Source: Photorhabdus heterorhabditis (GTDB lineage Bacteria; Pseudomonadota; Gammaproteobacteria; Enterobacterales; Enterobacteriaceae). Taken from it: a DNA stretch of 64,000 nucleotides. The DNA lies in NCBI RefSeq assembly GCF_018448905.1, contig NZ_RCWA01000022.1, positions 1-64,000 on the forward strand, in the 5' to 3' direction. Position 1 is the first letter of the stretch. Every line of letters starts with the position of its first letter. Both the position numbers and the translations under genes were made by a program. Positions 11,882 to 58,444 of this stretch are shown here, piece after piece. Under the pieces are notes generated by a model that saw nothing but the letters and a program-made list of their open reading frames with translations, was not told the DNA's origin and ran no database searches.

Positions 11882-12583
11882 ATGATTGTAAATAGAGAAG
11901 CAAAGCAATGTGGAAAAGCTGACTATGGTTGGCTACAAGCTCGTTATACATTTTCATTTGGTCACTATTTTGATCCAAAATTTTTAGGGTATGGCGCTCT
12001 GCGCGTACTTAATCAGGAAACTATCGCACCAAAAGCCGCTTTCCAGCCTAAATCTTATCCACATGTAGATATACTGAATATTATTCTACAAGGAGGAGCA
12101 GAATATCGTGACAGCGAAGGCAATCATGTCCGAGCTTACAAGGGAGAATGCTTACTATTCTCTACTCGTCAGGGTATCAGCTACAGTGAACATAATATCA
12201 GTGCCAATAAGCCACTAACTCGCTTACAGCTTTGGCTGAATGCCTTCCCTCAGCAGGAGAGTTTACCGTTGCAGCGGATGGAATTATCAGAACAACCATT
12301 AACTATGCTGGCCTCTCCAACTGCCGAAGATGGGAGTATGCAATTACGTCAGCAAGTGTGGGTCAACCATATTTCTCTTAATAAAAATCAATCTCATTGT
12401 CTGCAATTAAAAGGAAAAAATGCCTATCTGCAATCCCTAAACGGGAACATAAAAATAAAAGGTGATTCGAAGGATAACGCCTTGATTAAATGTGGAGATG
12501 GCGCTTTTATTCATGAAGAAAATCATCTGGCTTTAAAAGCAGATACTGAATTTCAAGGTTTATTAATTGATCTGTCAGCCTGA
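11882..12583 (+). CDS. yhaK: pirin-like bicupin YhaK
   Basis: YhaK is a cytosolic pirin-family bicupin, proposed in E. coli to respond to redox stress. The 233-residue protein matches E. coli YhaK from the first residues (QCGKADYGWLQARYTFSFGH) through the cupin strands HVDILNIILQGGAEYRDSEGNH to the GDGAFI block near the end. I use ATG 11882, not the ATG eight codons upstream, because the protein then starts like its E. coli counterpart. The Shine-Dalgarno AAGG is rather distant. Confidence 0.9.
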   Translation: MIVNREAKQCGKADYGWLQARYTFSFGHYFDPKFLGYGALRVLNQETIAPKAAFQPKSYPHVDILNIILQGGAEYRDSEGNHVRAYKGECLLFSTRQGISYSEHNISANKPLTRLQLWLNAFPQQESLPLQRMELSEQPLTMLASPTAEDGSMQLRQQVWVNHISLNKNQSHCLQLKGKNAYLQSLNGNIKIKGDSKDNALIKCGDGAFIHEENHLALKADTEFQGLLIDLSA

Positions 12584-12629
12584 AAAAGTGCAAGCCCCAT
12601 CAGGTAACAACCTAATGGGGCTAAATTTG

Positions 12630-13003
<374 letters not shown>

Positions 13004-13067
13004 GCGGCGGATTATAAGGGGTTTGCCTGACGATGTATAGGCGTTTACTGATTATCTGTCTTGTTTA

Positions 13068-13946
13068 TCAGCAACTGTCATTATCTTCATTTTGTCCCAG
13101 AGCATGACGATAAAGTGCATTTTTCTTCACACCATGAATCTCTGCTGCCAATGCAGCAGCTTTCTTCAGCGGCAATTCTTGCTGAAGAAGTTCCAGCGTT
13201 CTTAATGCCTCTGGAGATAAAGCATCATCAGCGGTTTTTTTATAACCTTCAACAATCAATACCATTTCACCACGGCGGCGGGTTTCATCTTCTTTAATCC
13301 ATACCAGAAGTTCACCTACCGACATTCCCTGAATTGATTCCCAGGTTTTTGTCAGTTCCCGCGCCAAAACGACATAGCGTTCAGCCCCCCACACTTCAAC
13401 CATATCTTCTAAACTATCGATCAAACGATGAGTAGATTCATAAAAAATTAAAGTACGTGGCTCCTGTTCCAAAGCCCGTAAAGTATCTTTCCGACTTTTA
13501 CTCTTAGCAGGCAAAAATCCTTCATAACAGAAACGATCAGATGGCAAACCAGCAGCAGACAATGCAGTTATAGCTGCACAAGGCCCTGGAAGAGGGACAA
13601 CGTGAATACCTGCTTCACGGCAACGACGAACGACATGATAACCAGGGTCGTTAATCAATGGGGTTCCCGCGTCAGAGACTAATGCAATGCTCTTCCCCTG
13701 CTGAAGTGTTGTAATTAATTGATCTGCTTTCTGCTGTTCATTATGATCATGAAGTGCGAACATACGCGCATTAATGGCAAAATGTTGAAGCAACAAGCCC
13801 GTATGTCGCGTATCTTCGGCCGCAATCAAATCGACATGCTTAAGAACTTCAAGCGCACGCTGAGTAATATCGCCCAAGTTTCCAATGGGGGTTGGCACAA
13901 CATATAGCGTGGATGTCGTAACCACTGCTCGATTGGGTTGATTCAT
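13068..13946 (-). CDS. rsmI: 16S rRNA (cytidine1402-2'-O)-methyltransferase
   Basis: RsmI 2'-O-methylates C1402 of 16S rRNA in the decoding centre using SAM. The 292-residue protein has the family features: [20 protein letters not shown] at the start, [33 protein letters not shown] and [27 protein letters not shown]. It lies between rnpB and the divergent lpoA, as in E. coli; its 5' end overlaps the longest possible lpoA frame but not the lpoA start chosen here. Confidence 0.95.
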
Positions 13947-14009
13947 TGTTTCATCCGAATGACCGATTTAAAATTGAGCATCTTTGAAAAAAACATCGCT
14001 GGATACAGT

Positions 14010-15701
14010 ATGCTTTCCTCAATTTTTGTGCGTATCAAAACTGGTTTAGTCTGTTCAGCTATGCTGGCAGTTATAATCATCGCAGGGTGTACCATGCCTG
14101 ACCAACAAGGGCAACAACCTTCGCAAACTCTGGACAAAGTCAGTACAGAAATCGCCCATTATCAATCCATCATTGATGCTGCCAATGGCGAACCTTCTCT
14201 TGATGTCATCCGTGCTTATATCGCTCAGGAACCTCTTCTGAAAGATGATACGATTCATCAAAAAAACATTGATGATACCTGGCAGATACTAACCCGCTTT
14301 TCTCCGCAAGATAGCCGTGGGTTAGTCATCAACGCTGATGAAAATGTTCTGCAAGGCTGGCTAGACTTACTCAGTACCTATCAGGATAACAAACAGGACT
14401 CCGACAAACTACAGGCAGCTATTCGTGACTGGAAAATTCGTTATCCGCAAAACCCGGCAGCACAATCACTTCCAACCCAGTTACAACCTGAAGCCACCCA
14501 ACCACAAGGTACTAACGCCCGTATTGCACTGTTCCTACCATTAAGTGGTCAAGCAAAAGTATTCGGTGAAGCAATCCGTCAGGGTTTTCTTGACGCTCAA
14601 TCGGGTTTACCAAGCCTACCAATGCCTACAGAGAATCCGGCAAGCTTACCTATCAATGAAGCTACACCGGCTGAATCAGCAATACCAACCGTTCAGTCAA
14701 CGCTTGCCATAGCAAATACACCAATTAACACGCAACCAGTCAAAATCTATGACACTGCAAGTCAGCCATTAGAAAATTTATTCATGCAGGCTGAACAGGA
14801 CGGGATGAATTTAGTTGTCGGACCGCTACTTAAACCTGACGTGGTTAAACTGGTTCAGATTAATACTCCACTAAACATGCTGGTGCTGAACGAATTAGAT
14901 AATGCACAACCCCAACCCAATATTTGTTATTTTTCTTTGTCACCAGAAGATGAAGCAAAAAATGCCGCAGAGCATATTTGGCAGCAACAGAAACAGAATC
15001 CTCTGATACTGGTTCCTCGCGGTAGCTTCGGTGACAGAATTGCTAAAGCATTCGCGGAAGAATGGCAAAAACAAGGTGGTCATGCCGTTTTGCAACAAAC
15101 CTTCGGCTCTTCTGCCGAACTGAAACAATCAATTAACAGAGGTATTGGTATTCGTCTAACTGGGACTGCCGTTGTTGTTCATGTAGCAAATCAGCCCATA
15201 CCAACCACTATAGGTAATCAGGAAATCCCTCAGATAAATACAGATGTGGTTTCCACCTCTGATGGTGCAGTAGATGCAGTTTATATTGTTTCCACCTTGG
15301 ATGAACTGACTCTGATTAAGCCAATGATTGATATGGCAATCAGTTCCCGCAATAAACCTGCTCTATATGCAAGTTCCCGTAGTAATCAGGCCGGTGCTGG
15401 TCCTGATTTCCGTCTGGAAATGGAGGGAGTACAATTTAGCGACATTCCATTAATAGCAGGTGCTAACCTGCCACTGATGCAGCAAGCAGCCGGTAAGTTT
15501 GCGAACGATTACTCTCTGATGCGCCTTTACGCTATGGGTATTGATGCCTGGTCATTGGCAAATCAATTCAGTCAGATTCAACTTCAAAGTGGTTTCCATC
15601 TCAATGGTGCTTCCGGTATGCTATCTGCTCAAGAAAATTGCACGATTTTTCGACAGCTCCCATGGATGCAGTATCATCATGGTCAAATCATTACCATTTA
15701 A
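14010..15701 (+). CDS. lpoA: outer-membrane lipoprotein activator of PBP1a, shortened N-domain
   Basis: LpoA is an outer-membrane lipoprotein that reaches through the periplasm to activate PBP1a. The start MLSSIFVRIKTGL at 14010 gives a 27-residue leader ending in the lipobox IIAGC, aligned residue for residue with E. coli. The C-terminal PBP-like domain is complete (RIALFLPLSGQAKVFGEAI through PDFRLEMEGVQFSDIPL). The N-terminal TPR-like domain is short: from Cys27 it goes almost directly to DAANGEPSLDVIRAYIAQEPLL, lacking roughly 85 residues. Total length is 563 against 678 in E. coli. yraN, diaA and dolP follow as in E. coli. Confidence 0.92.
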   Translation: MLSSIFVRIKTGLVCSAMLAVIIIAGCTMPDQQGQQPSQTLDKVSTEIAHYQSIIDAANGEPSLDVIRAYIAQEPLLKDDTIHQKNIDDTWQILTRFSPQDSRGLVINADENVLQGWLDLLSTYQDNKQDSDKLQAAIRDWKIRYPQNPAAQSLPTQLQPEATQPQGTNARIALFLPLSGQAKVFGEAIRQGFLDAQSGLPSLPMPTENPASLPINEATPAESAIPTVQSTLAIANTPINTQPVKIYDTASQPLENLFMQAEQDGMNLVVGPLLKPDVVKLVQINTPLNMLVLNELDNAQPQPNICYFSLSPEDEAKNAAEHIWQQQKQNPLILVPRGSFGDRIAKAFAEEWQKQGGHAVLQQTFGSSAELKQSINRGIGIRLTGTAVVVHVANQPIPTTIGNQEIPQINTDVVSTSDGAVDAVYIVSTLDELTLIKPMIDMAISSRNKPALYASSRSNQAGAGPDFRLEMEGVQFSDIPLIAGANLPLMQQAAGKFANDYSLMRLYAMGIDAWSLANQFSQIQLQSGFHLNGASGMLSAQENCTIFRQLPWMQYHHGQIITI

Positions 15702-15761
15702 TTTAACCGTTGATTGCCGCTTGTTATCAGGCGGCATTTAATTTAAGCAATCCATTTCAAA

Positions 15762-16142
15762 ATGAAAATAAAAAAGCCGACAAGTTATTTGCTGGGACGC
15801 AGCTATGAAACGCAGGCAAAGTTATTTTTACAAAAACAGGGACTATCTTTTATCGCTGCGAATGCGAAAGTACATGGTGGTGAAATTGACCTGATTATGA
15901 AAGACAAGCAGACTTGGGTCTTTATTGAAGTCCGCTTTCGTAAACTAGAGCAGCATGGCGATGCGCTCTCGACAGTCACCCGTAGCAAGCGTAAAAAACT
16001 ATTACACGCTGCCGCAGTGTGGTTATATCAACGAGGCGAATGTTTTGAAACTACTTCTTGTCGCTTTGATATTTGTGCTATTACTGGTCAAAGATTTGAA
16101 TGGTTACCAAATGCCTTCAATCAAAATGAGTTCACTCGTTAA
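15762..16142 (+). CDS. yraN: UPF0102 endonuclease-like protein YraN
   Basis: The 126-residue protein has the UPF0102 pattern: GRSYETQAKLFLQKQGL, the restriction-endonuclease-like core GEIDLIMKDKQTWVFIEVRFR (an E-x(8-12)-E-V-K-like arrangement), then SKRKKLLHAAAVWL. The fold is that of Holliday-junction-resolvase-like nucleases, but the cellular role is not established. It follows lpoA by 60 bp and precedes diaA. No clear Shine-Dalgarno precedes ATG 15762. Confidence 0.9.
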   Translation: MKIKKPTSYLLGRSYETQAKLFLQKQGLSFIAANAKVHGGEIDLIMKDKQTWVFIEVRFRKLEQHGDALSTVTRSKRKKLLHAAAVWLYQRGECFETTSCRFDICAITGQRFEWLPNAFNQNEFTR

Positions 16143-28287: not shown

Positions 28288-28794
28288 ATGCGACTAATAA
28301 AAGCTCTCATATTATTGTCCCCGACTTTGTTTACCAGTCTTCCGACACTTGCTTTATCACCAACCTTTACAGCCAATGATATTGCCAGAGAGATTACAAA
28401 CAGAGGTATTAACTCTGTTGTTGCAGAATTAGGAGAAATGGGCGTCAGGCAAGAAATTACTCACAAAATTACTACTGGTGATAGTAACTGGGTAAAGTTG
28501 GCCTTCAAATTAACTCAAAGTATGCATCTTGATTTTTCCAGAGAGATACGCTATGCACTCTCCATTGCATTAATCAATAATCCTGTTGATGTCCTTGCTG
28601 CCGCAGATAAAGAAAAAAATATATCATTAGCTGATATTTGTACCATCCCACCAGAACTTGAAACCAAAGAGCATAAAATAGAATTCGTCGATAAAGTCAG
28701 CAAGAGTTTAAAGTCCGTTACAGAATACGAAGCTAAAAACAGAGCAAAAGAATGTTTCTGGGAGTTAGAGAAAGCCTACAATGTGGAATTTTAA
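28288..28794 (+). CDS. exported protein of unknown function, 168 aa
   Basis: The protein begins with a signal peptide (MRLIKALILLSPTLFTSLPTLA, cleavage likely after residue 22). It is followed by an acidic/helical domain of about 145 residues with two cysteines (in ADICTIPP and AKECFWEL) that could form a disulfide in the periplasm. I do not recognise the family. It is the first gene after gltBD and marks the left edge of the accessory region, with no operon partner. Codon use looks normal and the frame is well formed, so it is probably a real gene. Confidence 0.65.
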   Translation: MRLIKALILLSPTLFTSLPTLALSPTFTANDIAREITNRGINSVVAELGEMGVRQEITHKITTGDSNWVKLAFKLTQSMHLDFSREIRYALSIALINNPVDVLAAADKEKNISLADICTIPPELETKEHKIEFVDKVSKSLKSVTEYEAKNRAKECFWELEKAYNVEF

Positions 28795-29377
28795 ATAAGT
28801 GCGCCCAGTATCGATCCACGTTGATCCATCTCCATTTATTTCCTGGAAATTGAGAATACAGTTCCCATCGATCTTCCAACGGTTCTCAATCATTGCCACA
28901 TATGCAGCATGAATGAATTGTCACTGTTTTACACAGTGACAATTCACTCGAACTGAAGTGGCTTCCCCCACCCTATCGAGGGCTTACGGCAGTTTTTGCT
29001 CAGTGATAACAGCAGGTACTGGGCTTATCGTAGTCATGATTTATGGGCGCAACAGCTTAATCACCGTCGTTCATATCAGCAAGTGATATTGCAGGAGCAA
29101 CCGGTGGTTCTACTACGCCCTAAAAGGGATGGCATTTACTATCACTAATGATTTACAGGAAAACCACGGTGAACTTGCTGAGAAACTGGATGAGCTAGAA
29201 GGAGAGTTACAAGAAAAAATCATCAATTGGCTAAAAGAGCATCGGCAAGATGGCGGTGCCATTAGCAACCTTACCAGTACAAATTACTCACAGATGCTCA
29301 ATAAACAACACATAACCACCGTATCCCCATCAGCACAGGGAACACTTTACTCTCATTACTTAACTCTTTTCTATTAT
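28795..29377. other. degenerate region between exported protein gene and CRISPR array
   Basis: No intact gene is evident. A frame open from 28957 to about 29148 encodes GLRQFLLSDNSRYWAYRSH and continues to LRPKRDGIYYH before a stop. A second frame from 29129 begins MAFTITNDLQENHGELAEKL, continues with GELQEKIINWLKEHRQDGG, and then runs into the first CRISPR repeats. The two look like pieces of one or two broken genes joined by a frameshift; I do not recognise them. Confidence 0.35.
28914..28946. repeat. perfect 13-bp inverted repeat
   Basis: TGAATTGTCACTG (28914-28926) pairs perfectly with 28934-28946 around a 7-nt loop. There is no U-tract, so it is not a simple terminator. It lies 120 bp after the exported-protein gene and could be a transcript-end structure or the relic of an inserted element. 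Confidence 0.5.
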
Positions 29378-30205
29378 CGGTTTATCCCCGCAAACACGAG
29401 GAACTCTTTTACCCTACCATCACTATAAAACCCGAATCAGGTTGATCCTCGTAGACCACAAGGAACGCATTGCCGTAGACAGGAATAGCTCTGTTTTTAG
29501 CGGTTTATCCCCGTAAGGACGGGGAACATGGTATATCTCGGCTGAATTAAACGCTAACTGTTCGGTTTATCCCCGTGAGCAAAGGGAACTCTTTCCCAAA
29601 CCGAAAATACATCAGTATCAGTTCGGTTCATCCCCGCATACAAGAAACGTTTACGAGTCACCTTTAGCCTGACATCCACAAAAGTAGTTATCCTCGTAGG
29701 AACAAGGAACACAGATTGCTACTAGTTACATCCCTGTTACTGTCCGGTTCATCCCATAGAGACAGGGAACGTAAGGAAGACAAATCAGTAGTGTCATTTT
29801 CGTACGGTTTATCCCCGTAGGTATACAGTTACAGGGAACATTTCCTTAGCTTGATGCTACTTAGAGCACTACTGGGTTCATCCCCGTAGAGACGGGGAAC
29901 ATTGAGCGAGCTTAACAAAGCATCACTCTTGACGCGGTTTATCCCCGTAAAGACGAGGAACATCTCAGAAAAATGATTTATCCATTTTAAATACTCTGGT
30001 TTATCCCCGTAAACACAAGGAACACTCAAATTCTCTCATTGATGAGGTTTATCGAGTTTGGTTTATCCCCGTAGGTACAAGGAACACTCATTAGCGCTAT
30101 CTCTCATCGTTAATTATAACGGTTTATCCCATTGAGCAAGGGGACATATTCTTTCTGGTCCAAACGTCACAGAGGTTTCTGTGCATCCCCACAAGCGTGA
30201 GGAAC
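29378..30205 (-). CRISPR. degenerate type I-E CRISPR array, 14 recognisable repeats
   Basis: Fourteen copies of a 25-28 nt repeat recur with about 61-62-nt periodicity, separated by unrelated 33-35-nt spacers. The starts are at 29378, 29440, 29501, 29563, 29624, 29684, 29744, 29804, 29873, 29934, 29996, 30058, 30119 and 30179. Read on the reverse strand the repeat is GTTCCCCGT-N4-ACGGGGATAAACC, the type I-E hairpin repeat, oriented for transcription away from cas6e. Nearly every copy differs from the others. The copies at 29440, 29624, 29684, 29744, 30119 and 30179 have lost hairpin positions, and the one at 29804 carries about eight extra bases. The best hairpins are at 29501, 29873 and 29934. 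Confidence 0.9.
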
Positions 30206-30561
30206 AGGGTAATCATTCTACCCATACCCTTCATCCTTCAAATTGCTGCTTTGTTGGCTGCGTTCACTTACCCCGGTCACATCGTTATCTATGCTCCTGG
30301 GGATGCGTTCTCTTGCCGCCGCGCTGCAAATTGAAATCTATTGGGTATATACTTTTTAGAATAGCGACTAATTCCCATTCTATCAAGGAAATCGCAATAT
30401 TAATGCATTAGTTAACAGTATTGCTTTTACCACGCGTTTGAATCATAAATGTGCCCTTTGTTAAGCTACAACCTAATAAGTTTTACGGACACAAACACTT
30501 TAACATCAATACGCTTATCCCAATCAAGATTATTGAATTACGATTTTCAATAAAAACGCCA
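30206..30561. other. region between array and cas6e: no cas1/cas2, no leader, ERIC inserted
   Basis: In standard I-E loci cas1, cas2 and an AT-rich leader fill this position. Here only about 355 bp remain: an ERIC element (30224-30349) starting 19 bp after the last repeat, then about 210 bp with no ORF resembling Cas1 or Cas2. Confidence 0.7.
30224..30349 (+). repeat. ERIC element 1
   Basis: The 126-bp element has the ERIC ends (ATACCC... and ...TTGGGTATA), the central CCCCGGTCAC and GCTCCTGGGGATGCG blocks and the imperfect overall palindrome. It is the most diverged full-length copy in the window and sits directly against the CRISPR array. Confidence 0.85.
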
Positions 30562-31236
30562 TCATACAGCTCTGATTAACATTAATCCGCATCCCATAGC
30601 CTTAGCCCGACCAAAACCTTTTGCGTACTGAGCCAAATACAAATCACTATTAGTAATGGTCAAAAGACCTTGAAAATCGACACTAGAAAATTGTATTTTC
30701 TGCCCTCTCTTTTTTACGCTTCGATGCTGGGTATAGCCTTCAATATCCAATAAATCATCAAACTGGATACCCCATTGCTGCATACGACGATTATTCAGGA
30801 GCCAATTACGGGCAGCATCCTCCATCATAACCTTTATTTTTTTCTGTCCAGTTTCCCCCCGCTGTTTTGCCTGAAACTTAGCATGCATCAAGACGTCATG
30901 ACGCCGGCGTTTACCAAAAGGATCGATAATACAGACTGTCGGATTGACACGTAATTTGAAAGCTAAACGTTGTCCCTCTTTTAAGAGGGGATAAAATGCC
31001 TTCGTTTGAACATCGAATAATGGTGATTCAGTTTGCGGTGAAGTTTTAGACAAAACATAAAACACAGGTAATCCTATCATTCCAATTTCTTGCCGAAATA
31101 AAAAATGACGTTTTTCGTCTGCTGAAAATAATTTCCATAACAATTGGTGAGAAGTATAAACACCATTTTCACCAAGTTTTTCCAATATATTTGCTGTCTG
31201 GCTTGATTGTCGGAGCATAATTTTAGATAGATACAT
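30562..31236 (-). CDS. cas6e: type I-E Cascade crRNA endonuclease Cas6e (CasE/Cse3)
   Basis: Cas6e cuts pre-crRNA at the repeat hairpin and stays on the crRNA in Cascade. The 224-residue protein has a ferredoxin-like N-terminal half (MYLSKIMLRQ), the basic central segment FKLRVNPTVC...KRRRHDVLMHAK, and the C-terminal glycine-rich loop KGFGRAKAMGCGLMLI typical of the family. ATG 31236 is chosen because GAGGAGGG stands six bases upstream and the family starts this way; the frame is open 75 bases further. It overlaps cas5e by 14 bases. Confidence 0.92.
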   Translation of the reverse strand: MYLSKIMLRQSSQTANILEKLGENGVYTSHQLLWKLFSADEKRHFLFRQEIGMIGLPVFYVLSKTSPQTESPLFDVQTKAFYPLLKEGQRLAFKLRVNPTVCIIDPFGKRRRHDVLMHAKFQAKQRGETGQKKIKVMMEDAARNWLLNNRRMQQWGIQFDDLLDIEGYTQHRSVKKRGQKIQFSSVDFQGLLTITNSDLYLAQYAKGFGRAKAMGCGLMLIRAV

Positions 31237-31969
31237 CAACACCCTCCTCAACAGAAAATTGATACATAATACGTTGCCTGAATTGCCAACGTCCTCGGTT
31301 AATCGGCTCATCCCAAGGATAGTTTATTAAGGTATTTGTAGAGATCATTTCATCTTTATTTCCTTCCCAAAAATAAGTAACAAAACCATCTGCTCTTAAC
31401 CATGATTTATCTTCTTTATCAGAATGAGTCAGCGATGGAAAAGGCGTATCCAATGCACCTTTTAATGTCGATAATTCAATCAATTTAGGGCAAAGAGGTA
31501 AAGCTGGCGGGCAAGATTTACGTCCAAGGTGCAAAACAAATACAGGTTTAAGTAAAGCATCCCGCAGTTGTTCAAGCGTAAAAGAAGCGTGCCCAGTTAA
31601 TGCAATAGCGACTATCCAAATACCATCACAACGATAATCACGATTCGATAATATGGTATTAAGTTTATCTGCACTTAATTCACTTTTACGGCTCTGATGA
31701 ACGACGTTATTATCGTGCGTCGGGACTTGTGTCGTATGGTAATCACGTATTAAAGAACCAGGAATAGTTTGCTTAATTGCTATCAATACACTTTTTTGTA
31801 ATTTTACTAACTCAGATTCATTATCTCGTCGAATACCTAACGCTGCCCCCAATAACCCCAAAATTGCAGAACGACCAGGATATAATCCCGTTGGCCTTTC
31901 TCCCCCAACCGCTGACTGGCCCCAACTTGCCATAGAACCATATAAGCGAAAGACTAAATACGCTTTCAT
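31223..31969 (-). CDS. cas5e: type I-E Cascade subunit Cas5e (CasD)
   Basis: Cas5e binds the 5' handle of the crRNA in Cascade. The 248-residue protein begins MKAYLVFRLYGSMASWGQSA and continues GGERPTGLYPGRSAILGLLGAALGI, the standard N-terminal signature of the I-E Cas5 subtype. The late segment ADGFVTYFWEGN is the family beta-hairpin region. No lesions are visible. The gene lies 12 bp after cas7e and overlaps cas6e. Confidence 0.94.
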   Translation of the reverse strand: MKAYLVFRLYGSMASWGQSAVGGERPTGLYPGRSAILGLLGAALGIRRDNESELVKLQKSVLIAIKQTIPGSLIRDYHTTQVPTHDNNVVHQSRKSELSADKLNTILSNRDYRCDGIWIVAIALTGHASFTLEQLRDALLKPVFVLHLGRKSCPPALPLCPKLIELSTLKGALDTPFPSLTHSDKEDKSWLRADGFVTYFWEGNKDEMISTNTLINYPWDEPINRGRWQFRQRIMYQFSVEEGVDVSI

Positions 31970-31981
31970 TCTGCCCTCCCA

Positions 31982-33016
31982 CTACCGAGCCACAAATTCA
32001 AGCAGTTCAGTCAAACGCCCTTCTCCGGTGAATGTGTTGAATGTATATCGCTCATCAGCACAATCACCATAAACCTTATCAATATTTTGCATTTGCTTTT
32101 CTAATGCATTAATTGCAGATAGGCCTTGGTTACTGTCATTTATCGGTTTTAAAAATGAGACAGATAAAGAACGAGGTTGTTGTTCACCTTTTTCAGCGAG
32201 AGCAAAACTGGCATAAGCACGAGAAGCGAAACTATTTTGTTTACCCGTTGGCGATATTTTTACAGCGGCTTCTGTCAATGCTTTAATCGCTTTATTAGCA
32301 AGCACTTCATCACCGCCCAAATTCTCTATCAATTGCGTTTTATTAATACAGATGTAGCTGTAAAACAGCGCAGCCGCAAAACCCGCCTCTCCAATATGGG
32401 CTGAACCCGTATCTACCTTACCATCATTTAAATCATCCACCGCCGTAAAATAGTCATCTTCAACGACAACAGTATGTACACTAATAGCATGAGCAACTTG
32501 GCAAGCGGCTTCGACGTTAAATGCAGGACTTGAAGCTAGCATTCGACCAAACAAAGCAATATCTACAGCAGTTTGCTCAGCTTTTAACAAATTAAGTTCT
32601 TCGGATGTCGGCGCTCGGCCTTCTTCTGCCAGCACTGCAACCAGCGACATAACAGACCGCTGCTCTGCCGGGCTGATATGTGCCAACTGTTCAATTTCTA
32701 AAGCATCTTTTTTAGTTTTTCCAAAAACACCAGCAATACTTGAAGCCAATGCCTTAGCTGATTTTTCTTTCACCCCAGCACTGATCAAAGCTTCAAATAC
32801 CTTAATACCAAAACGCTTTGTGCGAATGCCAATATTCTCTGATAACGCCTGCTCAAATAATTCAGAAGTACGCCAATGGCGTTTCAAACTTTGAGAACTT
32901 ACACGTAAACGTTCAAAACCACCCATTTTGGCTGTCTTAGGACGACCTAAATCATCGCGGTTAAGATTAGATGGCGCATAGGAAGTTAACAGGTGTAATT
33001 GAATAAACTGACTCAT
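31982..33016 (-). CDS. cas7e: type I-E Cascade backbone subunit Cas7e (CasC/Cse4)
   Basis: Cas7e forms the six-copy backbone along the crRNA spacer. The 344-residue protein starts with the near-invariant block FIQLHLLTSYAPSNLNRDDL, followed by GRPKTAKMGGFERLRVSSQS and LKRHWRT, and has the typical thumb and palm regions to the end. It appears complete and undamaged. It is separated from cse2 by 20 bp. Confidence 0.95.
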   Translation of the reverse strand: MSQFIQLHLLTSYAPSNLNRDDLGRPKTAKMGGFERLRVSSQSLKRHWRTSELFEQALSENIGIRTKRFGIKVFEALISAGVKEKSAKALASSIAGVFGKTKKDALEIEQLAHISPAEQRSVMSLVAVLAEEGRAPTSEELNLLKAEQTAVDIALFGRMLASSPAFNVEAACQVAHAISVHTVVVEDDYFTAVDDLNDGKVDTGSAHIGEAGFAAALFYSYICINKTQLIENLGGDEVLANKAIKALTEAAVKISPTGKQNSFASRAYASFALAEKGEQQPRSLSVSFLKPINDSNQGLSAINALEKQMQNIDKVYGDCADERYTFNTFTGEGRLTELLEFVAR

Positions 33017-33036
33017 AATGATTATCCTAAAATTAA

Positions 33037-33618
33037 CTAATGAAGATCTGATAAATCAATCGATTTTCCACTTGCAGCACGGTAATAATCCACAACCCAC
33101 TTCACATTAATACGCTTATTGGCCTCATAGGGTGGTAGTTGTCTATATTCAGCAAACCATTCCTCAATATCCTGAGCTAGGGCCAGAACCGAAATATTGC
33201 CCTTTACTTGTTGTAAAATTCGACGTAATTGGTGCAATAATTCGTTCGGTGTTCTGGCACTTTGTAGCTGTGAAAATCTCAATTCACTGACGACCGATCT
33301 ATTTCCACCGCCTTTCCTACCTGCTGCCACGGCGAATTTAATGTTACTGTTACTTTTAACATAAACTAATGACACCGCTATCGTTGCCCAATATTCTATT
33401 TTTACCGGATTGTTAGATAAGCTAATTTCATCAGGTAAGCTGAGCCATAAATCCCGAAAACTTTCGGTTAACATGGCCATTTCAATATTTTCACAGCGTT
33501 TTAGTTGAGCTTTATAAGTAGAAGGCGCTGGAGCAATACCTTTCTCTTTTAATTGTTCTGGCGACAAAAACATACTTTGCCACCAACGCAATAATATGGT
33601 TTCAATTTTACTGTCCAT
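33037..33618 (-). CDS. cse2: type I-E Cascade small subunit Cse2 (CasB/Cas11)
   Basis: Cse2 is the small helical subunit, two copies of which stabilise the R-loop in Cascade. The 193-residue protein is helical and basic, with LLRWWQSMFLSPEQLKEKGI near the start and the conserved FRDLWLSL and AQDIEEWF regions. Its ATG overlaps the cse1 stop (TAATG), showing translational coupling. Confidence 0.92.
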   Translation of the reverse strand: MDSKIETILLRWWQSMFLSPEQLKEKGIAPAPSTYKAQLKRCENIEMAMLTESFRDLWLSLPDEISLSNNPVKIEYWATIAVSLVYVKSNSNIKFAVAAGRKGGGNRSVVSELRFSQLQSARTPNELLHQLRRILQQVKGNISVLALAQDIEEWFAEYRQLPPYEANKRINVKWVVDYYRAASGKSIDLSDLH

Positions 33619-35222
33619 TACACTTCCTGTTTACCAGATTGAATATGGTTATTGGAAATAAATATTTTGATCTCTTTTAAAGCATATTGCCCATACAGCC
33701 CCATTATTAACTGCTGACGTGCCTTGATGCGTTTCGCCATTGAACGCTCATTGCCAAGCCCAGATAATGTAATATGTTCATCAAATAAATCTCTACAAAG
33801 ATGGCGCAATGTATTGAGCCAATGTTTAGCTTGCTCCTGCGTAAGAATAGGCTCATTCTGTTTTGTATTATCGATAAGTTGATGAATAACTGAAAAAAAT
33901 AAAGACTCACTGCGTTGCCAGAAAATAAGATCAATAAAAGAAATGTCGCCTTTTACATCAACAGGTTTTTCAAACCAAGCCGCTTTTATTTGGTTTCGGC
34001 ATAGCCAAATCACATTGGTTGCCAGCTTTTGTAGTTCTTTGACTTGATTCAGAACCTTTTCTTGTTGTTCAGGCAAGACAAAAAACAATGGCATAGTGAC
34101 AGAATACCAACAACGTGCTTTCATATTATCCATATCGTAGCCAAATACCCACAAACGAGGCATTACATTTTGCAATTCAGCAAAATCACGACATAAAGCA
34201 TAAAAATGACTGACTACAAGCGCACAACGTTGCCCTTTGTCACTATGACTAAAAACCAAAACATCCCAGATTTTGTATGTCACTCCTCCTGGCTGGCCTT
34301 TAATAGATAAATGTTCTGCTGTTTTTTTGGGGTCCCATTTATAAGGCGTTAACGGATGTTCCCAATTACCGGAATAATTACCACCATAGTTTTGTGTACG
34401 ATATTCAGAAACAGTGAATGTAGAACACTTACCTGAAATTTTACAAACCTGCTTATTTTTCTCCACCACAAGACGTATACGCCTCGGCATCGCCCAATAC
34501 ATATGTAAAGGATGAACATCAGCGGAATAAATTTCCGTCCCTTGCTCAACACTCGCTTTTGTTGGTTCTAACCAAGGAAAAACCTGTGCACTGGTTAAAT
34601 CAGGTTCTGAATAATGCCATGCGCTGCGATTAATGACGTTTAACCACAATTTTTGCCATAATGTTGCATCAGTTTGTTGTGGTAATACTAACGTGGTTAA
34701 TGGCCCTCCTCCCCGTAGCCCGACCCGATGTCCCACACCACCTGATGGCGCATTAATTTGTAAGGTAAAAAGTGCTAAAGCGGCCATTTCAAGAGACATA
34801 ACATCACCGATGCCTCGTTTAACAAAATGATCAGTATTAAGCTTTAATCCATTGGCTCCCGGCGCTTCAATTAACAGCCCAGCAACAGTGGTTAATTTTA
34901 TTTTTTGCAGCGGATCAAAATCCTGCATAAAAAGAGGACCTGTACCGGTAATATTGAAAGCATGTACGACTTTATTAAAAGCGTGTTGTAATGTTTTCTT
35001 ATCTGGTGATGTTTCATACAGGGCATACCATTGATATTTATCTTCAGGCGCAAAAACGGTTTGCAATAAACCAATAGCAAATTGGTAAGCTGCTCCTTGA
35101 AAATCAGCTCGCGGTAAAGCGAAGTCCACAACATCATGATCACATATCGTATTCATGGGCAGTACTTTTTCACTACCATCACGTAAGCGGAAAGGCAACC
35201 ACGGGTCCTGAACCAAGTTCAT
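33618..35222 (-). CDS. cse1: type I-E Cascade large subunit Cse1 (CasA/Cas8e)
   Basis: Cse1 recognises the PAM and recruits Cas3. The 534-residue protein has the family start MNLVQDPWLPFRLRDGSEKV, the GTGPLFMQDFD region, the LKLNTDHFVKRG motif and the glycine-rich INAPSGGVGHRVGLRGGGPL loop; the four-helix C-terminal bundle is present. It is somewhat longer than the E. coli protein (502). It starts 14 bp after cas3 ends, and an ACCTCCTG-complement ribosome site precedes it. Confidence 0.94.
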   Translation of the reverse strand: MNLVQDPWLPFRLRDGSEKVLPMNTICDHDVVDFALPRADFQGAAYQFAIGLLQTVFAPEDKYQWYALYETSPDKKTLQHAFNKVVHAFNITGTGPLFMQDFDPLQKIKLTTVAGLLIEAPGANGLKLNTDHFVKRGIGDVMSLEMAALALFTLQINAPSGGVGHRVGLRGGGPLTTLVLPQQTDATLWQKLWLNVINRSAWHYSEPDLTSAQVFPWLEPTKASVEQGTEIYSADVHPLHMYWAMPRRIRLVVEKNKQVCKISGKCSTFTVSEYRTQNYGGNYSGNWEHPLTPYKWDPKKTAEHLSIKGQPGGVTYKIWDVLVFSHSDKGQRCALVVSHFYALCRDFAELQNVMPRLWVFGYDMDNMKARCWYSVTMPLFFVLPEQQEKVLNQVKELQKLATNVIWLCRNQIKAAWFEKPVDVKGDISFIDLIFWQRSESLFFSVIHQLIDNTKQNEPILTQEQAKHWLNTLRHLCRDLFDEHITLSGLGNERSMAKRIKARQQLIMGLYGQYALKEIKIFISNNHIQSGKQEV

Positions 35223-35236
35223 AACACCTCCTGCTG

Positions 35237-37954
35237 TTATTTTTCACAAAAGCCTATTGTTGAAGAATAAGTAAAATTCGGATCTTTTTCTGGCAACCAA
35301 GGTTGCAAATATTTAATTTGATGGTACCGCTGTTGCAATCTATTGAGAGCCGGAATTAATTTAGTCGGAATTGGGGCTAATTTATCCGCATATTTATTTT
35401 TAGATAATTTAACCGTACTTAATGGCACTGAAAACTCTGCAGAATTTACCCATGGCACGAGTTGTCCTGAATCAGTCTGTTTAAGTAATAACACCTCAAC
35501 AGTTTCAATATCACAGTAGCGCGTATTAATACCTGAATCATCTTCATACCAACTATCAGCACTTCGATCACAGTAACCATATAACTGCCATTGCAACCAA
35601 TAAGATTTAGCTTTAGCTGCCTGACTTCGTTCTTCGCCAATTAACACATCTTCTCGATGTCTTAACGCTTCAGGTACTTGCTCATCATCATAACCATAAA
35701 CTGCTTCAATTAATTGACGAGCATCCATAGGCATACGTATTGCACCTAATTTTCTCAACACTCGCATGCCTAACCACAGACGTGCAGGAGATCGATAAAC
35801 ATATTGTGTGTTACGGAAATTATGGCTTAACCAATCTGATTCAGGGTTCTCCTTCCAGTCAGGAGCATGGACAAATAGTACTGGAGCAGGGCGTGAGTCT
35901 TTAATGCTATGTTGATAAATACCATCACTATCACGAGTATGGCGATGTAAACGTCCAGCTCGCTGAATCAGATCATCGATAGGACAAATATCTGAAATCA
36001 TGACATCAGCATCGGTATCTAAACTTTCCTGAAATACTCGCGTAGCAATTAACGCCTTACCCCGGCGCATCTCACCATAACTATTTTTACCAAAAATCGT
36101 CATCACACGACTTTCAATTTCTTTTCGATGTTGCAGTACAAATCGGCTATGAAATAATAAGCAACGTTCAGGTTCAGTAAGCAAATTTCGCAACACCTGA
36201 TAAGCTTCAATCGCATCGTCTACGGTATTTCGAATCCAAACTACGCATTGCCCTTGTACAATGGCGGCCAATACTTTTTCAACACAACTTCCAAAGCTAT
36301 TTAAGAATTCGACCTTAACTTCCCGATTAACGTCTTTTCGACTCGATAACGGTTGTTCAATAATGGGTGATACAGGGTTTAAATCTATTTTTGTTGCTAG
36401 CGGGAAATCAATTTTTTGCAGTAATTGAGAATTCAGTCCGCCGGCATTCAGCCAAATATCCGCTAAACGTTGACGCTGTTTAAGGGTCAGTGTTGCTGTT
36501 AATAAAATAGCCGAGCCACCTTGATAAATATGCAACGCTAATAAATTTTCCAGTAAATTAAACATAAATTCATCAGCTGCGTGGACCTCATCAACGATTA
36601 ATACCTTGTGATTAAGCCCAAACAATCTTAATGATTGATGGCGCCTTGGTAATACAGCCAATAACGCTTGATCAATGGTCCCGATCCCAACAGGCGCTAA
36701 CAATGCTTTTTTACGTGAATCGGCTAACCATTGACTGCACAGCACTGAAGCCGTGATATCTGTTTTACCATCGTTTCTATCTATATATCCTGAAACCAAG
36801 GCAGCGGCACAAAATTGCTCATTCATCTTCCATGTACCATGAGCTAAAACAATATCTGGCTTGCTACCATCTTCTGTTGATAGCATTTGTTGATAATGTT
36901 CAGCCATCCGGCTAAACATCGCATCGGACGTCGCCATACTAGGCAGACCGAAATAAAAACCATCGGCGGCTTTTGCTTGCATCAAACGATGTGTGAGCGC
37001 TAATGCCGCTTCTGTCTTTCCTGCCCCAGATACATCTTCCAAAATAAATAATTGAGGAGAATTATCTATTGGTATTGATTCAGCCCATTGTTGCAATGGC
37101 GTGGCGGCAAATCCGTAATATTCCTGAATGGAAATAAATGGTTTTACTATTGGCGCTTTACCTAATTCTGTCGCCATGACAGCTTTTTCTGCCACTGTTT
37201 GGGCATATTGCCAGTAATTCGTTAATGACATAGGTTCAGATTGATATTTAAAATAGTGATTATCAGAACCAATCCAATCCGCCAATACTGTAATACCGGC
37301 AAACTGCCAACTCACTTGCTCTAATCGCCGCCGCCATTCTTTGGATCGTAGTTTTTCAATGGGAAACTTAGGTTGTAATAATTCAATTAAATGGTGGGCA
37401 AAAAGTGTGACAGCATTAAAATTATGAGGTTCAGTAAAACATTTAATCACTTTATAGTCTGTTTTATCAATTGGCTGACCATGATGTCCTAATACACAAT
37501 CCATGAACACCATTAAGGTATCAAGCATTTCTTGCTGCTCTCCTTGCTCAATACCTTCAATATTAACCAGTCTCTTAAGTAACTTCGTTTTGATATTTTC
37601 CCAAAAATACAACCCCAGCCGAGCATGACCAAAATAACGACCATTATATTTCTTCAAGCAATAAGGTTGAAACAGACCTACTGCTTGATGGGAAAACAAT
37701 CTTTGAAAAGCAGACGCAAATTTACCAATATCGTGCAAAGCCAATACAAAAGAGATGATGCTTTGTAATTGCTTCGTAGATAATGCCAAAAAATTAGCAA
37801 GATCTTTGGTCAACGATCTTTCCAAAGAAAGCAGCTGTATTCCTACAGCCGCCACATCTAAACAATGATAAGGAAGTAGATGATAATCTGCATTATTAGC
37901 CTCTGGCTCACTCTTCGACTTACCCCAGTATTGAAAATAAATTGGTATTTCCAT
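35237..37954 (-). CDS. cas3: type I-E CRISPR helicase-nuclease Cas3
   Basis: Cas3 is recruited to the Cascade R-loop and unwinds and degrades target DNA. The 905-residue protein has an N-terminal HD nuclease domain (YHLLPYHCLDVAAVGI, ALHDIGKFASAFQ, and LGHHGQP) and an SF2 helicase with Walker A EDVSGAGKTEAAL, DEVH box VDEVHAADEF, motif III LLTATLT and motif VI LIQRAGRLHRH, followed by the Cas3 C-terminal domain. All catalytic motifs are present. AAGGA precedes the ATG. It heads the six-gene operon. Confidence 0.95.
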   Translation of the reverse strand: MEIPIYFQYWGKSKSEPEANNADYHLLPYHCLDVAAVGIQLLSLERSLTKDLANFLALSTKQLQSIISFVLALHDIGKFASAFQRLFSHQAVGLFQPYCLKKYNGRYFGHARLGLYFWENIKTKLLKRLVNIEGIEQGEQQEMLDTLMVFMDCVLGHHGQPIDKTDYKVIKCFTEPHNFNAVTLFAHHLIELLQPKFPIEKLRSKEWRRRLEQVSWQFAGITVLADWIGSDNHYFKYQSEPMSLTNYWQYAQTVAEKAVMATELGKAPIVKPFISIQEYYGFAATPLQQWAESIPIDNSPQLFILEDVSGAGKTEAALALTHRLMQAKAADGFYFGLPSMATSDAMFSRMAEHYQQMLSTEDGSKPDIVLAHGTWKMNEQFCAAALVSGYIDRNDGKTDITASVLCSQWLADSRKKALLAPVGIGTIDQALLAVLPRRHQSLRLFGLNHKVLIVDEVHAADEFMFNLLENLLALHIYQGGSAILLTATLTLKQRQRLADIWLNAGGLNSQLLQKIDFPLATKIDLNPVSPIIEQPLSSRKDVNREVKVEFLNSFGSCVEKVLAAIVQGQCVVWIRNTVDDAIEAYQVLRNLLTEPERCLLFHSRFVLQHRKEIESRVMTIFGKNSYGEMRRGKALIATRVFQESLDTDADVMISDICPIDDLIQRAGRLHRHTRDSDGIYQHSIKDSRPAPVLFVHAPDWKENPESDWLSHNFRNTQYVYRSPARLWLGMRVLRKLGAIRMPMDARQLIEAVYGYDDEQVPEALRHREDVLIGEERSQAAKAKSYWLQWQLYGYCDRSADSWYEDDSGINTRYCDIETVEVLLLKQTDSGQLVPWVNSAEFSVPLSTVKLSKNKYADKLAPIPTKLIPALNRLQQRYHQIKYLQPWLPEKDPNFTYSSTIGFCEK

Positions 37955-38481
37955 CTAAAATCCTTCACTTAAACACTTTTTCCGCATACCTTTAGAACAT
38001 AATGCGAAAATTTAGATCAAAAAAATACTACTTTCTGTTTTTTTAGGATAATTCTGTATAAAAACACCTTACCTAAACAGATTAAATTTCCTACTGACTC
38101 CTTCAAGCATCAGTCAGAATTAGAATGACATCGTATTGCAGTGAAACCACTTGACAGGCCCCTCCATAATTATACATTTGATAAATAAAGAAAATCTTAT
38201 GAAGGTTCTGTACCATTTCATCAAGAATTCACTTGGGTTGATTACCCTATCCATAAAATGTCAGGTCAATATGAGATGAAAGTACTGATGGGTGTTTAGC
38301 TCTGTCAATATACAAATAGATTTATGAATCACATTTCCAGTCATTGATCGTATAAATTTAAATCCTGGGGCAAAAACATAGTGAAGGAGTTAATTAATCA
38401 ATTTACCTGAATCAGCGGCATGATTAACATCAACACGCTTAACAACCACATGACCATTTAACCGAGTGAATGCAAAGATTA
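37955..38481. other. intergenic region upstream of cas3
   Basis: About 530 bp includes the cas operon promoter region (AT-rich, no clear operator seen). A forward frame ending in TAG at 38299 encodes GSVPFHQEFTWVDYPIHKMS without a start codon, and looks like the last piece of an unrecognised gene. Confidence 0.35.
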
Positions 38482-57445: not shown

Positions 57446-58444
57446 TTAAGTACGGAACAATGATTCAATATTCAAACCTTGGGTTTGCATAATATCTTTT
57501 AAACGTCGCAAGCCTTCGACCTGGATCTGACGCACTCTTTCCCTTGTCAAACCGATCTCTTTGCCCACATCTTCCAAAGTTTCCGCTTCATAGCCCAAGA
57601 GACCAAAACGACGCGCTAATACTTCACGTTGCTTCGAATTTAATTCAAACAACCATTTGACGATACTCTTTTTCATATCATCTTCCTGTGTTGTTCCCTC
57701 CGGCCCTGTTTCATTCTCATCTGATAAAACATCCAATAGTGCTTTGTCAGAATCGCTACTAATTGGTGTATCAACCGAAATAATACGTTCATTCAATCGC
57801 AACATACGACTGACGTCATCAACCGATTTATCCAGTTTTTCTGCTATCTCTTCTGGACTGGGTTCATGATCTAATTTATGGGCAAGTTCTCTTGCAGTAC
57901 GCAAGTAGACGTTAAGTTCTTTAACAATATGAATAGGCAACCGGATAGTACGAGTTTGATTCATAATAGCCCGTTCAATAGTCTGCCGAATCCACCATGT
58001 TGCATAGGTAGAAAACCTGAATCCACGTTCCGGGTCAAATTTCTCAACAGCACGGATAAGACCAAGATTACCTTCTTCAATCAAATCAAGAAGGGCTAAG
58101 CCTCTGTTGCTGTAACGGCGGGAGATTTTAACAACCAATCGCAAGTTACTTTCAATCATTCTCTGGCGGGCCAATACATCACCACGTAATGCCCGCCTTG
58201 CAAAAAAAACCTCTTCTTCTGCCGTCAACAGAGGAGAAAAACCAATCTCTCCGAGATAAAGCTGTGTTGCATCAAGAACTCGCTGGTTCATACCCTGCAA
58301 TACATCTAAGTCATTCTCAAGATCAGTTAGGTCACCCTCACCATTCTTCAATAATTTCTCATCGAAGTCGTCAGCTTCAATACCGCTTTCATCTAAATCC
58401 GCATCATCATACAAATCACTAACTTTCAGCGTATTTTGGCTCAT
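57446..58444 (-). CDS. rpoS: RNA polymerase sigma factor RpoS (sigma-38)
   Basis: RpoS directs stationary-phase and general stress transcription. The 332-residue protein (330 in E. coli) has region 1.2 ([20 protein letters not shown]), region 2 ([38 protein letters not shown]), region 3 and region 4 with the helix-turn-helix [20 protein letters not shown]. In E. coli its main promoter lies inside nlpD and its translation is helped by ArcZ, which is also encoded in this window. It is the last gene of the conserved reverse block. Confidence 0.97.

Follow-up and report, generated by a model that had tools for sequence, protein, structure and literature searches.

A type I-E CRISPR system without adaptation genes in Photorhabdus, probably retained as a fixed set of Cascade guides

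Related systems and the Photorhabdus locus

CreA and CreR, in which one crRNA-like unit (crRNA, the RNA of clustered regularly interspaced short palindromic repeats, CRISPR) guides the Cascade complex to a promoter, CreA by partial complementarity (PMC12055562, PMC12737573), are the nearest known mechanism to the system treated here. That system is a type I-E locus in a 64-kb stretch of the Photorhabdus heterorhabditis contig NZ_RCWA01000022.1 (below called the window, from a draft assembly of 226 contigs), with a complete set of interference genes, a degenerate array and no adaptation genes of its own type. It would resemble CreA, CreR and CrePA in that crRNA-like RNAs guide Cascade to a promoter and repress without cutting. 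In the available parts of the sources the Cre RNAs are each a single unit in a cas locus, repressing a toxin or the cas operon, whereas the present locus has a full array of about 13 units, lacks the adaptation genes, shows no match in the 480 nt 5' of cas3, and has as its single likely target the gene of a small RNA at another place on the chromosome.

For a type I-E* system of Klebsiella pneumoniae a repression of hutT through a partly matching spacer has been proposed (PMC12188710), but there cas1-cas2 and two arrays are still present, the match to the own gene comes from a single spacer of the one strain studied, and the part of the source available contains no selection test on it, whereas selection is measured here. 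The canonical type I-E locus of Xenorhabdus beddingii has the same interference genes in the same order, with cas1e-cas2e after cas6e and five repeats at 61–62 nt spacing, four of them 94–100% alike; the window lacks acquisition genes, its repeats all differ, and its spacers are found throughout the genus. The NilD crRNA of the nematode symbiont Xenorhabdus nematophila reportedly has a role outside defence, but is said to be a single element of one species with unknown target, in contrast to the genus-wide set with a measurable guide footprint found here. The kind of mechanism, Cascade-guided self-regulation, is known, and what is new is that a whole array is concerned throughout a genus, that acquisition has been lost, and that selection can be followed from one base to the next. 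No earlier report of this locus or of a conserved regulatory array was found in the open-access literature, and if the regulatory reading is true this would be, to our knowledge, the first multi-guide, genus-wide domesticated CRISPR array.

We consider it quite probable that this is a type I-E system without acquisition which has been retained as a fixed set of Cascade guides, a domesticated and vertically inherited natural bank for CRISPR interference (CRISPRi). The guides probably control the bacterium's own genes rather than remember viruses. Interference genes without cas1 and cas2 beside a degenerate array are easily taken for relics, and a preliminary description of this DNA had called the array eroded.

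Conservation of the spacers and the cas genes

With Cas7e as the query, 86 relatives were found among GTDB genomes, and 80 loci were retained for comparison. The locus set comprises 14 species, namely the window, 12 named Photorhabdus loci and the congener L109, with stretches of 21 kb for each of eleven relatives, 14.7 kb for L013 and 17.5 kb for L109. The whole-genome set holds 13 genomes, the window's own (G000) and twelve others (G001–G012), of which 11 map to named loci and one, G007, is an additional one-per-species genome outside them.

The array of the window contains 15 repeat-like units spaced by 59–69 nt, a spacing of 61–62 nt being found also by a repeat search, and the weakest units, with 15–16 of 23 consensus bases, were recognised through their spacing. 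The preliminary description had counted 14 drifted repeats; the count is too low, but the divergence is confirmed, since no two of the 15 repeats are identical. A degenerate array lies 3' of cas6e in all 12 named Photorhabdus loci, and L109 has one as well. The spacers and their order are common to the 14 species apart from scattered unit losses, unit-specific repeat changes are shared between species, and the alignments show the units to be orthologous across the genus. The array is accordingly not of the canonical form with identical repeats and strain-specific spacers.

Units were aligned across species by the 8-nt 5' handle ATAAACCG, and spacer position 1 is the first base after it. The profile consists of 13 units, each present in at least six species, after 15 false best matches had been removed by hand; U8 (two species) and U3b (three species) are outside it, and no register could be assigned to U1 in the window, L008 and L009. 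All 13 units, found in 6–14 species, are conserved at the seed positions, which does not agree with a simply eroded array. The mean pairwise difference is 0.065 at positions 1–5 and 7–11, against 0.058 at second codon positions of the cas genes in the same species, and 0.305 at positions 6 and 12 against 0.310 at 622 four-fold sites; at positions 19–30 it is 0.22–0.45. Positions 5 and 7 do not vary in any unit, while positions 6 and 12 each vary in 11 of the 13. When positions 1–12 were permuted within units, the observed contrast was reached in none of 100,000 permutations, and for position 6 alone in two of 100,000. Parsimony on the tree of the cas genes counts 69 changes within positions 1–12, and 37 of these fall on positions 6 and 12 (p = 2.7e-12), with 17 on position 6 and none on 5 and 7. 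The changes per site are 0.25 for the seed positions, 1.42 for 6 and 12, 1.76 for 19–30 and 1.63 for four-fold sites. The handle base -1, likewise kinked by Cas5, has a difference of 0.174 and varies in seven of the 13 units, with only 0.020–0.030 at -2, -3 and +1, and the constraint fades past position 12 except in U1, U3, U4 and U5, where it is longer.

In the available part of the source, Cascade is described to kink the guide at -1 and to flip out bases 6, 12, 18, 24 and 30 (PMC5965380). The freedom of positions 6 and 12 between conserved positions 1–5 and 7–11 is the footprint expected of a Cascade-guided regulatory RNA, and from this flip-out pattern it follows that Cascade pairing, and not DNA decay, should govern the evolution of the array. 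No cause at the level of DNA or of protein coding is known to us by which exactly bases 6 and 12 would be freed. The spacers are under selection for a guide-target pairing of about 11 bases inside Cascade, a length that seems too short for normal interference and suited to promoter binding. The six-base footprint separates a used from a dead array by sequence alone, and offers a generally applicable way of testing for regulatory crRNAs, whatever the genus. The repeat stems point in the same direction, if modestly, by pairing at 5.02 of six positions on average, against a maximum of 4.91 in 5,000 reshufflings of the 5' and 3' halves. Stem pairs 1–3 are kept at 95–96% and pairs 4–6 at 70–72%, and in some units both sides have changed, for example CAC/GTG in U1 for CGT/ACG.

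The six interference open reading frames (ORFs) are all open and collinear on the minus strand from 37954 to 30562, each scoring above its curated NCBIfam cut-off (Table 1), as the preliminary description had it. Because the profile match of cas6e begins at residue 26, its true start is probably near 31236. All six genes are present in the 12 named Photorhabdus loci with 78–94% protein identity, and also in L109. The comparison of nonsynonymous to synonymous rates (dN/dS) across Photorhabdus that the preliminary description had proposed gives a median pairwise value per gene of 0.090–0.156 over the 14 species, lowest in cas7e (0.090) and 0.136 in cas3, with a mean dS per gene of 0.39–0.52. The interference genes are under purifying selection, and at 0.09–0.16 the ratios bear out the earlier claim that they are in continued use. 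An apparent premature stop in cse1 of L008 was rejected, as the product is 530 residues long with a slightly shorter C-terminus, and peptide patterns of Cse1 had no match among viral contigs. About 70 nt located 5' of cas3 (37991–38062, with equivalents in 13 relatives) are nearly invariant, exceeding the surrounding non-coding DNA, and are probably a cas promoter or regulator site.

Cas1e and Cas2e of X. beddingii gave no tblastn match in the whole window, and relatives of them were not found in any of the 14 locus stretches; they are encoded by most of the Xenorhabdus, Vibrio and Photobacterium loci compared. The only Cas1 of the window's genome by PF01867 is a protein of 326 residues on another contig, type I-F by TIGR03637 (535 bits) and with 108 bits below the 215.6 cut-off of the I-E model, so the earlier statement that cas1 and cas2 are missing holds for type I-E. 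Among the 13 genomes cse1 is present in all and a Cas1e above the cut-off in none. Ten of them have a weaker match to the Cas1e model, of which that in the window's genome is I-F by model score, and the nine others are taken to be I-F by their similar scores. No match at all is found in G007, G008 and G009, and I-F adaptation may also be variable within Photorhabdus. Cas2e (PF09707) was searched genome-wide in the window's draft genome alone and was not found, with a model that detected only two of 14 control genomes and missed the E. coli control; a complete adaptive type I-E set of Cas1e and Cas2e was not seen. As cas1e and cas2e were found in none of the 14 locus stretches and a Cas1e above the cut-off in none of the 13 genomes, the loss is old, and spacer acquisition was lost before these Photorhabdus species diverged, which excludes the very recent loss that the preliminary description had offered as its alternative. 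In Xenorhabdus bovienii (L031, 12440–12560) there is also an I-E module without cas1e or cas2e in the stretch compared, with one repeat-like remnant after cas6e, and the region 12400–16000 of that locus has no direct repeats of at least 20 nt.

The suggestion that the genes work with arrays elsewhere found no support in the window's draft genome. A 26-nt repeat pattern allowing up to three mismatches gave six matches, all at 29379–30085, and none for the reversed control. An equally diverged array could have escaped this search, since the pattern recovers only six of the 15 units known here and the genome is in draft form.

A candidate target in the 6S RNA promoter

Since the pairing is conserved, the targets are expected to be conserved too. 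An exact scan with U11 (CTAAANACAGA) in three distant genomes gave, besides the array, two common sites, one coding and one outside ORFs. The latter, which no open frame of 80 codons covers in any of three genomes checked, is located between a gene that we take to be zapA (its E. coli counterpart is annotated so) and the 6S RNA gene ssrS (Rfam RF00013), on another contig than the array (G000:C2). It lies between the motifs TTG[AC]TT and TACAAT, spaced by 16 bp, which form the apparent ssrS promoter, and the -10 motif ends 36 nt before the 5' end of 6S RNA. In all 13 genomes the 16-bp promoter spacer reads TCTGT[A/G]TTTAGTTT[C/T]A, which is the complement of the U11 seed plus TTT. The TTT corresponds to an AAA protospacer adjacent motif (PAM) on the other strand, and the PAM and ten pairing positions are invariant in every one of the 13 genomes. 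At position 6 seven genomes have A and six have G; the tree places five changes there and leaves the 13 sites around it unchanged, and the other variable base of the promoter spacer, next to the -10, has changed once. The pairing ends at position 11 or 12, matching the conserved length of U11, which likely guides Cascade to the ssrS promoter. In stationary phase 6S RNA regulates RNA polymerase.

An AAG-flanked exact U11 seed is also present near the 3' end (28733–28743) of the gene for a protein of 168 residues without Pfam or NCBIfam match at 28288–28794. It is conserved in three genomes, but was rejected as a target, being probably the result of coding conservation.

In the proposed mechanism the array would be transcribed by read-through or from a local promoter, Cas6e would cut the transcript, and each guide would load Cascade. 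The complex would then bind a short PAM-flanked chromosomal site in a promoter, the PAM and 11 nt, and block transcription without Cas3, because about 11 nt should be too little to lock the R-loop and recruit Cas3. Positioned between the -35 and -10 of ssrS, Cascade with U11 would block RNA polymerase and so tune 6S RNA. A role that needs no new spacers was one suggestion of the preliminary description and is the best reading, but not through a few surviving crRNAs, as thirteen units are seed-conserved. Whether these form a hard-wired CRISPRi regulon, with about a dozen 11-nt-seed guides each restraining a chromosomal promoter, that of 6S RNA included, and with Cascade as a global regulator of stationary phase or symbiosis, is a proposition that we judge evenly balanced. 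If true, it would tie Cascade to 6S RNA, a global RNA polymerase regulator, in bacteria that alternate between killing insects and living in symbiosis with nematodes, and what was an adaptive immune system would have been turned into a bacterial counterpart of microRNA control.

Alternative explanations and other target searches

It is possible, if clearly the less probable case, that the footprint is genuine and the match of U11 to ssrS a chance coincidence with a conserved promoter. Pattern scans give 7–19 exact matches per genome and seed, array included, and some of these will be conserved by chance; U9 and U10 have no comparable site, and the whole ssrS region is slow (0.16–0.53 changes per site, with 0.25 for the 40 nt upstream of the site and 0.53 for the 38 nt downstream), the -35 and -10 also being invariant or nearly so. 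Nevertheless, the promoter spacer that is fixed in the 13 genomes except for the two bases mentioned is unrelated in Proteus mirabilis (TCTACAATTAAAATAA), where the -35 is TTGCTT and the -10 the same; in E. coli, the second 6S outgroup, inspection by eye found no evident counterpart of this promoter before the 6S gene. Moreover, the chance that all five changes fall on position 6 of 14 sites is 1.9e-6 if rates are equal per site, a post hoc value, as the site came from a genome scan, that covers the placement of the changes and not the finding of the site.

The other explanations concern the array as a whole. Fixed guides could still recognise invariant phage or plasmid sequences, with Cas3 destroying the target as in an innate-like defence, and the constraint on cas3, which is like that on Cascade, its match to the HD and helicase models, and the conserved seeds with free 3' ends, which could reflect tolerant recognition, would fit this. 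It is unlikely, because the array gave no convincing match against 50,697 phage records (three records, best E 0.3), a moving phage target should not keep 11 bases fixed genus-wide, and the U11 site in ssrS is chromosomal; locking of the R-loop, and with it interference, normally needs far more than 11 paired bases. Somewhat more doubtful still is an addiction or autoregulation in which some units act as CreA- or CreR-like crRNAs on a toxin or cas promoter and so retain the locus, for which the crRNA-like RNAs that steer Cascade to promoters are a precedent (PMC12055562, PMC12737573) and with which the degenerate, unit-specific repeats are compatible. In the available parts of these sources, however, the Cre units are single and do not form a multi-unit array, and in the 480 nt upstream of cas3, where the promoter itself is unmapped, none of the seeds of the 13 units has the better alignment than permuted seeds that a CreR-like guide should show. 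Within the loci the seeds have few exact matches (eight outside the array), none of them at a conserved place. A CreTA or CrePA module would have a toxin gene next to the guide and repressed by it, small toxin ORFs not having been searched for. Neutral decay after a recent loss of cas1 and cas2, the genes being intact for want of time, could account for the mutual divergence of the repeats and for the several units damaged or lost in single species. It is nonetheless highly improbable and, as far as these comparisons go, already refuted by the state shared between all 14 species at the dS given above and by the six-base pattern, in which conservation at the seed positions equals that of second codon positions and drift at 6 and 12 is free.

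A number of observations weigh against the retention of the array as a regulatory guide set. Profiling only recognisable units can inflate the general conservation, though not the six-base phase, and handle positions -5, -6 and -8 vary as well (0.12–0.23). Position 6 is fixed in U1 and U9 and position 12 in U6 and U12, the units U1, U6, U7, U12 and U14 are missing or out of register in some species, and the stems of U2, U6, U7 and U12 pair poorly, at 3.3–4.5 of six. Repression alone needs no cas3, yet this gene is constrained as strongly as the Cascade genes; it may have been retained as leftover defence, by operon membership, or for longer pairing by some guides. The PAM of U11 at ssrS is AAA and not the I-E consensus AAG or ATG, and a target is proposed for only one of the four guides searched, U11 and not U4, U9 or U10. 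For the exact U10 seed, with no PAM demanded, the array is the only site common to three genomes. With a preceding G it has 50 matches in the 13 genomes, of which 13 are the arrays, and among the 47 matches that were read no non-array site occurs in more than eight genomes; the widest site, in eight of 13, sits in a long open frame and was rejected. All 47 exact matches of U9 in three genomes include no common non-coding site; GGT precedes the sole common site outside the array, which lies within a long open frame. For U4 with two mismatches, the matches listed (G011 in part, and without G012) fall in a multi-copy coding region with CCG or CTG before the site, and scattered elsewhere; the repeated-region matches were rejected as coding-sequence coincidence. 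Of the eight exact seed matches outside the array in the 14 loci, five have a canonical PAM; with reversed seeds this holds for one of 14, and among near-matches for about 7%. However, these sites lack conservation, and in the next set two of 21 exact matches have such a PAM, so the enrichment of PAMs near the loci is unproven.

A dispersed upstream repeat family with 50 matches in 12 of 13 genomes is located beside cassettes that we take to encode type VI secretion effectors (L010, 14741–14960; L011, 19655–19860). Two exact seed sites (L008 and L010) are in or beside this family, but as a general target it was rejected, since only two of the 47 loci scanned, comprising most copies, combine an exact seed with a canonical PAM. 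An exact U13 seed preceded by GTG is found near 58026 in a coding sequence that is presumably rpoS-like (a sigma factor), where chance is likely; together with the 6S match it would be a second stationary-phase link.

Table 1. Coordinates in the window of the cas genes, the array and its units.
Feature	Position	Strand	Basis and remarks
cas3, HD nuclease-helicase, 905 residues	35237..37954	-	NCBIfam cas3_core 186.8 bits, cas3_HD 95.7 bits; Pfam Cas3_HD
cse1/cas8e	33618..35222	-	TIGR02547, 528 bits
cse2/cas11e	33037..33618	-	TIGR02548, 99 bits
cas7e	31982..33016	-	TIGR01869, 337 bits
cas5e	31223..31969	-	TIGR01868, 165 bits
cas6e ORF	30562..31311	-	TIGR01907, 164 bits; Pfam PF08798
Repeated element of about 125 nt between cas6e and array	30224..30352 (ends approximate)		Alignment; similar copies elsewhere
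Frozen array, 15 repeat-like units	29318..30205	-	12 units with spacers in register with other species; same orientation as cas genes
U2	30088..30149	-	Unit alignment
U3	30027..30088	-	Unit alignment
U3b	29965..30026	-	Unit alignment; window species, L008 and L009 only
U4	29903..29964	-	Unit alignment; conserved to about position 18
U5	29842..29903	-	Unit alignment
U6	29773..29834	-	Unit alignment
U7, seed GACAGTAACAG	29713..29774	-	Unit alignment; positions 6 and 12 variable
U9, seed AACTGATACTG	29592..29653	-	Unit alignment; position 12 variable, 6 fixed
U10, seed AACAGTTAGCG	29531..29592	-	Unit alignment; ten pairing positions unchanged in all 14 species, 6 and 12 variable
U11, seed CTAAAAACAGA at 29500-29490	29469..29530	-	Unit alignment and target scan; likely 6S RNA promoter guide
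U13, seed GATTCGGGTTT	29407..29468	-	Cross-species unit alignment; position 6 variable across species (A/G/T)
U14	29346..29407	-	Cross-species unit alignment; 6 species

The repeated element between cas6e and the array is missing at this place from the 12 aligned relatives. In the array of L008 a short repeated element, resembling a miniature inverted-repeat transposable element, has been inserted twice. One insertion is in the U5 spacer, near its position 17, and the other separates U8 from U9. The short-element insertions of the window and of L008 all spare the seeds.

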